DNA of 29,003 bases from a virus: positions 1-29,003 of the IMG/VR virus record IMGVR_UViG_3300028383_000229, one strand, 5' to 3'. Under the pieces are notes generated by a model. It was not told the origin of the DNA. It searched no databases and saw only the letters and a program-made list of their open reading frames with translations. Positions 803 through 6,425 of the stretch are shown here, piece by piece; positions within the stretch are counted from its first letter, which is position 1; each line of letters starts with the position of its first letter. A program made the position numbers and the translations under genes.

Positions 803-1485
803 GTTTTTTCTTTTTGCACCTCTCTCAAACGATATTTAGGGACGCCAATGTCTCTTTTGTCGCAATATATCTCAAGTATACACTCATCACACAGAGGCTG
901 TCTACTCCTGCACACTGCCTTCGCGTGAGTGATTAACTGCATGTGGGCAGCATACTTGTATTTGTCTGGCGTAGTGTCATTCACAATCTCGCTTGTCTTT
1001 CCTTCATCCAGCGAATCAGTCCAACCAAGTCTCCACAGCAGCCTAAATACGTGAGTATCTACAGCTATCGTAGGCTCGCCGTATACAAAACGCATCACAA
1101 TGTCAGAACTCTTTTTGCCTACACCAGGCAACGTCATCAGTTCTCGCTGTGTAGTAGGCACAGCACCGTCATATTCATCTATTAACTTCTGTGAGGTAGC
1201 AAGGATGTTTTTCGACTTTGCTTGAAACAATCCTGCAGGACGGACTGCTTCTATCACTGTATCCCTATCTAATTTTACCATGTCCCAAGGGTTGTCTGCT
1301 AGAGCAAAAAGTTGACGGCTTGCTTGTGCAGTGCGCTTGTCTTGACTCTGAGCACTCAGCATTACGCCTATGAGACTTTTATAAGCATCCTTGTGAATCT
1401 TCGCATCAGGCTGAGAGTTTCTATACTGCGGATACTCCTTGCCTAACTGCTCATAGATAAATTGAATATTATCTGCGTTCTTCAC
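799..1485 (-). CDS. nth: endonuclease III (DNA glycosylase/AP lyase)
   Basis: A base-excision repair enzyme that removes oxidised pyrimidines and cleaves the abasic site. At 228 residues it is close to the usual bacterial length. The helix-hairpin-helix is LPGVGKKS (119-126) with the catalytic Lys at 125, followed by AVDTHVFR with the catalytic Asp at 143. The C-terminal 4Fe-4S loop is complete: C192, C199, C202 and C208, spaced C-x6-C-x2-C-x5-C. The start is GTG at 1485-1483, overlapping the stop of the clamp-loader gene (GTGA). T4 itself uses the unrelated DenV for repair, so a cellular Nth here is an acquired gene. It lies directly ahead of ferredoxin. Confidence 0.95.
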
Positions 1486-2405
1486 TCTGCATTCCTTGCA
1501 AGTTTGATAAGAGTTGCTGCTAGATTTATTTCAGGATCAGCCACAAGCGTGTGATCCACAAGTCCTTGTTTGATAATAAGCACGGCTTGATCCTGTTTCT
1601 CTTCTGTTGCGCCAAACAATTCAATATTAGTATACAGCCAGCGGTAGATTTCCTCCATTTCCTCAGGACGAACAGTGCCGCACAGCAATTTTCTCGCATC
1701 CTGAATCTTGCCTGCCTTGAACAGTTCTACCATATCCAGTTTCCAGTCTGCTTCCCCTGTGTCACCTTCGTGCGGAGCAACAAGAGCGCCATCCTGTGAA
1801 TTCATCTGCACAGTATTAATACACTTGCGCAAGTCAGGATAGGTTGCTTTTACATAAGTATCCAAAACATCAATGTCTGGCGTAACACCTTCTGAGATGA
1901 GAATCTCTGCTACCCTCGCAGTAAATTCTGTCTCGTCAATTTTCGCAATATGGAAACCCTGACAGCGAGAATGTATAGCAGGAATAATTCTGTTGGGATA
2001 GTTACAAGTAAGAATAAATCTCGCTGTAGTGTGATACTCTTCCATCACACCACGCAGTGCTGCCTGAGCGTTTGGTGATAGATAATCTGCCTCGTCCAGT
2101 AGCACAATTTTAAAATCACCGAACGGAATCATCTGCACAAAATTAACAATTCGATCTCTCACGTCATCCACTGAGTTTGTGCGCGAAGCGTTGATTTCAA
2201 GAATGTCTAAATCATTTATGTCCAGTTCGTGAAACAGGATTTTAGCAAGTGTAGTTTTCCCAATCCCAGCATTGCCTGAGAACAGCAGATGCGGGATTGT
2301 TTTATCCTTGATCCAAGTTTCTACCTGCTTTCTCTGTTCTGCATCACGGAATACATATCCGTCTATAGTTTTTGGACGGTACGCCTCTACCCAAAGATTC
2401 TTCAC
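1482..2405 (-). CDS. 44: sliding-clamp loader ATPase subunit (T4 gp44 type)
   Basis: An AAA+ ATPase that loads the phage sliding clamp onto primer-template DNA, normally with gp62 as partner. The protein has 307 residues. It opens with WVEAYRPKTIDGY, which is typical of the family. Walker A GNAGIGKT is at 44-51, Walker B VLLDEAD at 101-107, sensor-1 TCNY at 133-136 and the SRC motif with the arginine finger at 146-148. The start is GTG at 2405-2403 overlapping the dexA stop (GTGA), the same GTGAAGAA junction as the next gene. No gp62 or gp45 gene is in the window, so it is separated from its usual partners or they lie elsewhere. Confidence 0.95.
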   Translation of the reverse strand: MKNLWVEAYRPKTIDGYVFRDAEQRKQVETWIKDKTIPHLLFSGNAGIGKTTLAKILFHELDINDLDILEINASRTNSVDDVRDRIVNFVQMIPFGDFKIVLLDEADYLSPNAQAALRGVMEEYHTTARFILTCNYPNRIIPAIHSRCQGFHIAKIDETEFTARVAEILISEGVTPDIDVLDTYVKATYPDLRKCINTVQMNSQDGALVAPHEGDTGEADWKLDMVELFKAGKIQDARKLLCGTVRPEEMEEIYRWLYTNIELFGATEEKQDQAVLIIKQGLVDHTLVADPEINLAATLIKLARNAE

Positions 2406-2938
2406 CTTGTTGCTCCTAGTTCTGAATATGCGATTTGAATTGCTTTTGACTGATAGTATGCATCCGCTAGAGCGTTATGTAAATCGTTTTGGATTTGTTT
2501 GCGAGGATCTTGTTTACATACTCTAAACAGTGTGCGACTGTCTAGAATCTGCCAAAAGTTCCAGGGAATAGGTCTTTCAATGCTTCGATACATATCTTCC
2601 AGCATCGTATAGTCAAATCCGTAACCCTGACCCCAAAACGTGTCAACACCTACTGCGAATTTTGAAATTTCAGCAAGAGCATCTTCTACTGTGACAGCAC
2701 CCGTTTGATCAAATGCTTCTTCCATAATTTTGGGATCCTGCTTACCCCACCATTCCAATGTGGATTCGCTCACTGTTCGATTATACCGATCTTGGTCGTC
2801 AATGCTGATTTTGATATACAATTCAGAATGCGGTTCTTCCGAAGTCAGCGGATTGAATTTTACAGCACCGAGACTGAGCACAGTTGCCTTCGGGAGTACA
2901 TCAATAGTTTCTAGGTCAATTGTTGCGTGTGTAGCCAA
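2402..2938 (-). CDS. dexA: DexA-like 3'-5' exonuclease (DEDDh fold)
   Basis: A 178-residue DnaQ/RNase H-fold exonuclease, closest to the T4 DexA/Rv2179c group. Visible catalytic residues are D8 and E10 in TIDLET, D109 in GFDYTML, and H154 and D159 in HNALADA. The start must lie upstream of D8, and the only suitable codon is TTG at 2938-2936. It is preceded nine bases earlier by AGAGGA, a good ribosome-binding site that lies in the 3' arm of a hairpin. It heads an overlapping cassette with the clamp loader and endonuclease III. A role in degrading host DNA or in end processing is inferred from T4 DexA. Assignment within the wider DnaQ superfamily is fairly secure but not tested by search. Confidence 0.85.
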   Translation of the reverse strand: MATHATIDLETIDVLPKATVLSLGAVKFNPLTSEEPHSELYIKISIDDQDRYNRTVSESTLEWWGKQDPKIMEEAFDQTGAVTVEDALAEISKFAVGVDTFWGQGYGFDYTMLEDMYRSIERPIPWNFWQILDSRTLFRVCKQDPRKQIQNDLHNALADAYYQSKAIQIAYSELGATR

Positions 2939-2940
2939 AG

Positions 2941-2989
2941 AAAAAAATCCTCTACTATTTTATAAAGTGTAACACCTTACAGTAGAGGA
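2941..2989 (-). terminator. hairpin plus T-run: terminator or RBS-masking stem ahead of dexA
   Basis: On the minus strand, TCCTCTACT (2989-2981 region) pairs perfectly over nine bases with AGTAGAGGA (2956-2948) across a 24-base loop, followed by seven T residues (2947-2941). This is the form of an intrinsic terminator for the halogenase transcript. The 3' arm also holds the AGAGGA ribosome-binding site of dexA, so any read-through transcript would hide that site. The loop is long for a strong terminator. Confidence 0.6.
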
Positions 2990-2994
2990 GTCAA
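2966..2994 (-). promoter_or_regulatory. sigma70-like promoter for the dexA cassette
   Basis: On the minus strand TTGACT (2994-2989) and TACACT (2971-2966) are separated by exactly 17 bases. The first matches the -35 consensus at five of six positions and the second the -10 consensus at four of six. The start of transcription is predicted near 2959, after the 5' arm of the hairpin, so the dexA ribosome-binding site would be unpaired in this transcript. An early or middle promoter read by host polymerase is inferred. Confidence 0.5.
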
Positions 2995-2999
2995 TGTCT

Positions 3000-4424
3000 T
3001 TAATTTCTATTATCAAAGAAAAGTTCGCATTGTTTTTGTTTCATAATTCCAGTAGGAATATCTACATTCTTGAATTTAAAGTCATATCCAGTTAATATGT
3101 CTATCCAAGACACGTCATTAAAAGCCCAGATACTGTTATCTGGTCTATTAGTTTTATTTGGCATAAAGTTACGATACTGGTCCAATCTAGCTAGTAATCT
3201 AGGATGCCTTTTACGTGACGATTGATATATCCAAAATTCACTGTCCTGTCTATTACTTAACATATAATGAGTGTCTATAAAATCTTGAACATCTTCGATA
3301 TAGGACCTAATTTGCGAATTATATCTTTCACTTATACTTTGATCAAAATACCTATTTTTCAACATAGTAGCAAGTAGACGTGATGAAATAACAAACCAAC
3401 TTATTCCTGTCGCCTCTAATGGTTCAATAAATCCTGCACTAAGTCCTATATTCACAACATTATTTTTCCATGGGCTTAACAAGCTCTCTGAGGAAAATGA
3501 TATTTTTTGTAAGTCACTTTCTGTTATCTGATTATTCCAATAATCAAGCAATTTATATTTGGCTTCTTCGTAGCTACAAAAATTTGTATTGTAAACACAG
3601 CCGCTGCCTAGTCTAGAAGAGAGCGGAATAGTCCAAATCCAGCCGTTTGTCCATGCATCTGCCTTTGTGTATGGAATAGTTTCTTTGTTAGAGATTTTTT
3701 CGTAGGGTATTTGAGCAGCAATAGCTGCATTTACATTTCCTTCATACCCGTCGGTTGTAGTGTTATCAATAGCATTTGAAAGTGACCTTGAAAAACCAGT
3801 ACAATCAATGTACAAATCTGCTTCTAGTTTTTTGTTTTTGTCTAATTCAATACTCTCTATTTTATCATTGGAATGTATAAAGTAATCATTGTAGTATACG
3901 ACATCTATAGATTTTCCGAGAAAATCAAGCACGTAGCTTGCCATTTTATCAGCATCAATATGCAGTGCATATGGCATTGCAGTTGATGATAGATTATTTT
4001 TTACACAAAGTTCGAAACTTGGATGGACGCATCGATAGTAATCAGTTAACGGATATTTTTCCGGGTAAAGACCATGCATCTTATGATAATGATGTGCGCG
4101 GGTGTATTGGGATTGTCCTGATAAACTAGTAAAAGGATGCCAATAATTCTCCCCTATCAGATTCCAATTCTTATAATAGATTCCATGTTTTAGTGTGCAA
4201 TCAACTTGTTCAATAAATTCGAATAGGTCTATTCCTGCATCCTCTATAAGATCAACAAGGTCTGGTTGTGTGCTTTCGCCTACTCCTATATTTTTGGAGT
4301 TTTTAGGAATCATAATTGAAATTGCAACGTCGGGCAAAAAAGTACGAAGCGTTAAAGCGGTAATAATTCCTGCACTTCCTGCGCCTAAGATACCAATATG
4401 TTGCAGATAAGTTCCTTCTTGCAT
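3000..4424 (-). CDS. flavin-dependent halogenase (tryptophan-halogenase family)
   Basis: A 474-residue flavin-dependent halogenase that would use FADH2, oxygen and halide to halogenate an aromatic substrate. The FAD-binding GAGSAG (GxGxxG) is at 14-19, GVGES at 47-51, the catalytic Lys at 79 in TLKHGIYYKNW (the same number as in PrnA), the diagnostic WxWxIP as WIWTIP at 262-267, and a Glu at 337 in GFIEPLEATG. Everything needed for catalysis appears present. Related viral halogenases are known from marine cyanophages (VirX1 of Syn10, an iodinating enzyme). The substrate here is unknown, and no flavin reductase is in the window. The gene is visibly richer in A+T than gp31 before it and dexA after it. 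It starts ten bases after the co-chaperonin stop, with a weak upstream ribosome-binding site. Confidence 0.92.
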   Translation of the reverse strand: MQEGTYLQHIGILGAGSAGIITALTLRTFLPDVAISIMIPKNSKNIGVGESTQPDLVDLIEDAGIDLFEFIEQVDCTLKHGIYYKNWNLIGENYWHPFTSLSGQSQYTRAHHYHKMHGLYPEKYPLTDYYRCVHPSFELCVKNNLSSTAMPYALHIDADKMASYVLDFLGKSIDVVYYNDYFIHSNDKIESIELDKNKKLEADLYIDCTGFSRSLSNAIDNTTTDGYEGNVNAAIAAQIPYEKISNKETIPYTKADAWTNGWIWTIPLSSRLGSGCVYNTNFCSYEEAKYKLLDYWNNQITESDLQKISFSSESLLSPWKNNVVNIGLSAGFIEPLEATGISWFVISSRLLATMLKNRYFDQSISERYNSQIRSYIEDVQDFIDTHYMLSNRQDSEFWIYQSSRKRHPRLLARLDQYRNFMPNKTNRPDNSIWAFNDVSWIDILTGYDFKFKNVDIPTGIMKQKQCELFFDNRN

Positions 4425-6417: not shown

Positions 6418-6425
6418 TATTTATG
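6418..6425 (-). promoter_or_regulatory. T4-type late promoter
   Basis: The minus strand reads CATAAATA, a full match to the NATAAATA late motif of marine T4-like phages. It overlaps the stop codon of the 855-codon gene and is followed by TGTTAGGAGCAACGC and the ATG of the 201-codon gene. Confidence 0.65.

Follow-up and report, generated by a model that had tools for sequence, protein, structure and literature searches.

The locus analysed here raises a simple question: why should the promoter of a phage replication operon lie inside a hairpin that also contains the ribosome-binding site of the gene behind it? The window, i.e. the whole stretch of 29,003 nucleotides that was analysed, comes from a 29-kb virus fragment (IMG/VR record IMGVR_UViG_3300028383_000229). 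On its minus strand, a TTG start codon (2938-2936) opens a 178-aa ORF (2402-2938) for a DexA-like 3'-5' exonuclease (PF16473), which is 29% identical to T4 DexA over 154 columns (E 1e-13). The next gene of the operon encodes a gp44-like large subunit of the clamp loader (1482-2405, minus strand), and behind it follow, in the same operon, an endonuclease III-like gene (799-1485) and a ferredoxin gene (449-802). The nearest clamp loaders belong to jumbo phages of the PA5oct/Paride type; a comparison by DNA found no close named phage, and the proteins showed less than 60% identity. The genes upstream of the element are structural or GroES-like. A tryptophan-halogenase-like gene (3000-4424, minus strand) sits between the structural genes and the replication operon, and its stop codon adjoins the element.

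The original prediction had described a TTGACT-17-TACACT promoter on the minus strand, nested in a hairpin with the Shine-Dalgarno (SD) sequence in its 3' arm, seven T residues behind it and a TTG start, and all coordinates of this anatomy were confirmed. The -35 hexamer TTGACT occupies positions 2989-2994, and the 5' arm (TCCTCTACT, 2981-2989), an anti-SD arm that is recognizable by sequence, fold and covariation, begins with the final base of this hexamer. After a 17-base spacer, the -10 hexamer TACACT (2966-2971) falls within the apical portion of the hairpin. Going by promoter geometry, transcription should start at 2959, about 7 bases past the -10, and an RNA that starts there is predicted to lack the 5' arm. 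The 3' arm (AGTAGAGGA, 2948-2956) holds the SD sequence AGAGGA (2953-2948). Directly past the stem lies a U-tract of seven T residues (2941-2947) that doubles as the spacer between SD and start codon. The nine-base stem was present as described, but an inner helix had been missed: in the predicted fold, TAAGGTG (2973-2979) pairs with CACTTTA (2963-2969), and these 7 bp shrink the apparent loop of 24 bases to 3. As modelled, an element of about 50 bases would combine a promoter, a ribosome-binding site and a hairpin that locks this site in messages begun upstream.

Taken alone, the window element is mildly unusual. Its minimum free energy is -18.4 kcal/mol (z = -2.2 for a 111-nt segment). The window has one perfect 9-bp inverted repeat with 6 or more T among the next 7 bases, where shuffling leads one to expect 0.067 (such a repeat arose in 3 of 60 shuffles). 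In a promoter scan it ranks low, with 9 of 12 matches; its own -10 is weak, and one outer pair of the hairpin is lost. No Rfam family matched in the window at the gathering score. Seen by itself, so weak an element could also be an accident in AT-rich DNA, its promoter match being poor and its inverted repeat due to chance, and we therefore turn to its relatives.

A search with the exonuclease led to 80 viral loci, on contigs that are themselves fragments. At the head of the same exonuclease/clamp-loader operon we found 60 distinct promoter elements, nearly all with the nested anatomy. The element directly precedes the exonuclease gene in about half of the distinct loci. In most others a small membrane-protein gene heads the operon, and the element lies in front of this gene, some 210-230 bases farther upstream. 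The element stays with the operon while the upstream genes vary between loci. Fifty of the relatives' elements fall into the TTGACT register, and hexamers of the sigma70 (early) type at a distance of 16-18 bases are conserved. The relatives' nested promoter (TTGACT-17-TATAAT, usually with GC or GT before it) is better than that of the window, which argues that the geometry is selected rather than accidental. Other sigma70-like promoters on these contigs mostly read TTGACA (27 with A and 14 with T, 5 of them this element). A few relatives have the promoter without a clear mask (L041, L053, L049, L054, L045, L056). The pattern TTGACTCCT..GCTATAAT was tried as a marker of the device and rejected: it also matches a cyanophage-type promoter (AGGTTGACTCCTCCTTTTTTT..) without clear SD-matching arms, so this -35 extension alone does not imply a hairpin. 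A conserved cyanophage-type promoter of this kind, AGGTTGACTCCTCCTTTTTTTCTTGCTATAAT, stands before a small conserved gene (MSIKLALLKSGE..) in L081, L083, L089 and many other loci, again without clear SD-matching arms.

The original prediction would have been refuted, by its own terms, had the arms failed to covary or been missing in close relatives; they were present there and covaried strongly. The alignment was anchored by TTGAC and the first GGA[GAT] past the -10 only, never by pairing. At 14 paired positions in 47 distinct elements, 92.2% of the cells were paired, compared with 72.9% after shuffling and 35-56% when the arms were slid against each other. Cells changed on both sides numbered 130 (44 shuffled), and the covariation score of 0.502 (0.152 shuffled) was reached in 0 of 500 shuffles. 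Arm positions 9-11, counted from the first T of TTGAC as 0, lie outside both the -35 and the SD; they were paired in 96% of the cells versus 48% with shuffled partners. Counted on a tree of the exonuclease proteins, double changes left a pair intact in 72 cases and disrupted it in 8. Chance origin is refuted by this strong covariation and by the architecture that the 60 relatives share. Judged by the comparison of sequences, the element is real and strongly selected.

An inverted repeat at a promoter might also act as DNA, either as an operator for a dimeric protein or by cruciform extrusion that opens the -10. The centre of the palindrome does lie near the -10, and T4 has palindromic early promoters without the SD in their arms. 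However, the arm sequences change freely while complementarity is kept, unlike a protein site, and the arms take several registers relative to the promoter yet reach the SD. Among derived wobble states, G-U (33) was more common than A-C (13), a preference also seen in the raw counts at covarying positions; a DNA structure would explain this less well than RNA of the coding strand. We regard a role as DNA as highly improbable.

In RNA that comes from upstream, the SD is paired in a helix according to both the predicted fold and the covariation, whereas promoter geometry in the window and its relatives places the internal start such that the transcript lacks the 5' arm. The predicted SD accessibility had a median of about 0.0005 when the RNA came from upstream and of 0.41 when it began at the nested start; shuffling the 5' part gave 0.32. 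Accessibility was low even in promoter-started RNA in L192, L153, L161 and L086, and was 0.15 in the window. These models suggest that the hairpin hides the SD in read-through RNA and that RNA from the nested promoter cannot form it. Most relatives have a hairpin of 18-21 bp with -14 to -28 kcal/mol and the -10 in the loop. Such near-perfect stems would also suit RNase III, and cleavage of the read-through RNA, not masking, could then be the point of the long stem. We consider this very unlikely, since the helices of the window and of the mazG, regB and denV elements described below are shorter or interrupted, while most of them still cover the SD.

The stem is followed at once by a U-tract, as in intrinsic (rho-independent) terminators. 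At least 5 T in the 7 bases after GGAG were found in 45 of 50 elements, while among 129 other genes of these phages only 7 qualified. The U-tract is thus selected, and termination is probably part of the device. An intrinsic-terminator function also appears to be under selection on this sequence evidence. Unlike the usual terminator, the stem is AT-rich and long, its apical loop holds the -10, its 3' arm is the SD and its U-tract serves as the spacer to the start codon. One could nevertheless read the element as essentially the intrinsic terminator of the upstream (late) operon, with SD and promoter placed in the 3' arm and the loop to save space. The strong selection on the U-tract would suit such a terminator, as would the upstream genes ending immediately before the element. 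The TTG start fits as well: it opens the gene in 23 of 31 adjacent TTGACT cases, goes together with the U-tract and lengthens the T-run. It may also, as the original prediction proposed, add sensitivity. The terminator reading does not account for elements with a poor U-tract that keep the SD pairing (L007, GGAGATTCTATG; L112, GGAGATCTCTTATG; L065/L066), which indicate that masking is the more constant part, or for the T4-type regB and denV elements, which have no U-tract and whose arms nonetheless cover the SD. A terminator pure and simple therefore seems unlikely to us. The original prediction had upstream transcripts either terminating or folding the SD away, and the selected U-tract and the near-zero accessibility in read-through RNA support it.

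Hairpins that sequester a ribosome-binding site and contain an internal late promoter are known from T4 e, soc, 49, I-TevI and segB (PMC3014915, PMC2988022), and the genes under such hairpins are all late genes according to a review (PMC2988022). As in the window, the transcript of the nested promoter lacks the 5' arm and longer transcripts hide the SD (PMC3014915, PMC2988022). In T4, however, late promoters are nested and the RNA that is silenced is early or middle, whereas the nested promoter of the window is of the sigma70/early type. The internal promoter is not a T4-type late promoter (TATAAATA) but TTGACT-17-TACACT or TATAAT, and NATAAATA, a late-type motif discussed below, occurs elsewhere. 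The window element further differs from the e/soc/49 type in that it serves replication and nucleotide genes and has a U-tract past the stem. The mobE hairpin of Aeh1 likewise sequesters a ribosome-binding site in a T4-like phage, but it belongs to a homing-endonuclease gene and is listed among the arrangements of late promoter and hairpin (PMC2988022). By analogy, the element would work as T4 e, soc, 49 and I-TevI do, except that an early promoter takes the place of the late one. The relevant passages of reviews on T4 early transcription and post-transcriptional control make no mention of early promoters in such a position. Nothing nearer was found in the full-text literature outside subscription papers.

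An early promoter nested in this way would make sense if late RNA entered the operon from upstream. The T4 consensus TATAAATA was tried as the late promoter of the window and was absent; motif enrichment then gave NATAAATA, a T4-type late motif that is about 27-fold enriched upstream of genes in the window and four relatives. In G001, G010, G016 and G018 the motif reads NATAAATA, often CGATAAATA, unlike the TATAAATA of T4. It lies on the strand of the element, 2.5-3.3 kb before it, in the same four relatives, and the window has a late-promoter-like site, ATAAATA (6418-6424, minus strand), 3.5 kb upstream. With structural genes upstream and a late motif on the same strand, late RNA running into the operon is to be expected. 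The original prediction that the order is inverted relative to T4 agrees with these upstream late promoters, but its contrast with T4 has to be amended in one point, since T4 itself has an early version at regB, denV and other genes. The operon would, in our inference, be early and shut late.

The exonuclease operon is not the only place where we found the device. Pattern scans located it before mazG, dUTPase, primase-like and DsbA-like genes, where the names dUTPase and primase come from reading the sequence and have no family match. In such a scan, 49 of 51 sites were masked, but this is partly built into the pattern and was not used as evidence. In the four contigs that were scanned, the exonuclease element was the strongest site combining mask and promoter, and usually the sole strong one. 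In G018 (L231-L235), two further candidate TTGACT promoters in SD-covering hairpins are located at 76771 and 49544. Fixed-register covariation at mazG was weak because of a bulge. In the cyanophages S-SM2 and P-SSM2, mazG lies directly behind other genes and leaves no room for the device. In a swap test that asked for 8 bp or more of helix across the SD, arms with their own partner succeeded in 84% (dexA), 78% (mazG) and 74% (regB/denV) of cases versus 33, 36 and 15% with swapped partners.

A scan of T4 matched regB, denV, alc, alt.-3, nrdC.8 and 30.8, and later motB.2. At regB, denV, alc, motB.2, nrdC.8 and 30.8, an early promoter has its -10 between the arms and the SD in the 3' arm, and the arms of regB and denV covary between phages as they do in the relatives of the window. 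These T4 versions differ in that they have no U-tract, their -35 is GTTTAC and their arms usually start past the -35. A naive count of T4 early promoters with a masked SD gave no excess over shuffles (12 vs 12.7), since pairing comes easily to short segments in which the SD is fixed, and z-scores and swap tests were used instead. Of 45 GTTTAC sites in T4, 17 fold with z < -3, compared with 3% of random segments. In relatives of regB and denV, the SD-covering helix is kept across many different sequences, some of them in another register. Upstream of denV in L492, L498, L499, L506, L508, L512 and L520, the 5' arm shares bases with the -10 and stops at the predicted start; in this alternative register the 3' arm covers GGAG, and the promoter's own RNA would again lack the 5' arm. 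The paper by Valerie et al. (1986) on the sequence of this T4 region reportedly mentions stem-loops in front of denV and further ORFs.

Masking is not the sole use of such palindromes in T4, since about half of its early promoters nested in hairpins exclude the SD. Early promoters of T4 (L476-L479) were seen in near-perfect inverted repeats with the -10 in the loop, the SD excluded and no U-tract, which masking does not explain. They lie at 65769 (ipII), 73909 (ipI), 57960 (mobD.2), 20582 (dmd), 146113 (frd.2 region), 133301 (cd.2/cd.3 region), 129889 (30.7) and 7185 (motB region).

Our main reading, to which we give a probability of roughly 77%, is that the element ties translation of the operon to the promoter that made the RNA, the SD being free early and hidden or terminated in late read-through. 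A host-type sigma70 polymerase would start about 7 bases past the -10, on the loop side of the hairpin, and the resulting mRNA, without the anti-SD arm, would have its SD free and be translated in the early phase. RNA begun upstream would contain both arms, and the hairpin would bury the SD. In the clade of the exonuclease element, where the U-tract lies directly past the hairpin, much of the read-through RNA would probably also terminate. Given the late promoters on the same strand and the structural genes upstream, the main read-through RNA would be late, and the operon would be shut at that time. On balance, we also lean towards a broader reading, in which T4-like phages widely use an early-gene lock: genes under it would be translated only from RNA of their own promoter and be silent in all read-through. 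Such a lock would unite promoter, RBS-masking hairpin and, outside T4, terminator in one element of 50 bases. Its evolution would have produced several registers, with examples at exonuclease, mazG, dUTPase, regB, denV and further early genes.

These findings suggest that the shut-off of early proteins involves more than stopping early promoters, RegB or RegA. Through individual promoters, the genome can apparently make an early gene unreadable in any RNA begun elsewhere. The design is compact, combining promoter, insulator and ribosome-binding site. Since T4 regB, denV and alc have the same anatomy, the idea is open to a test in the best-known phage, for which tools and RNA data already exist.
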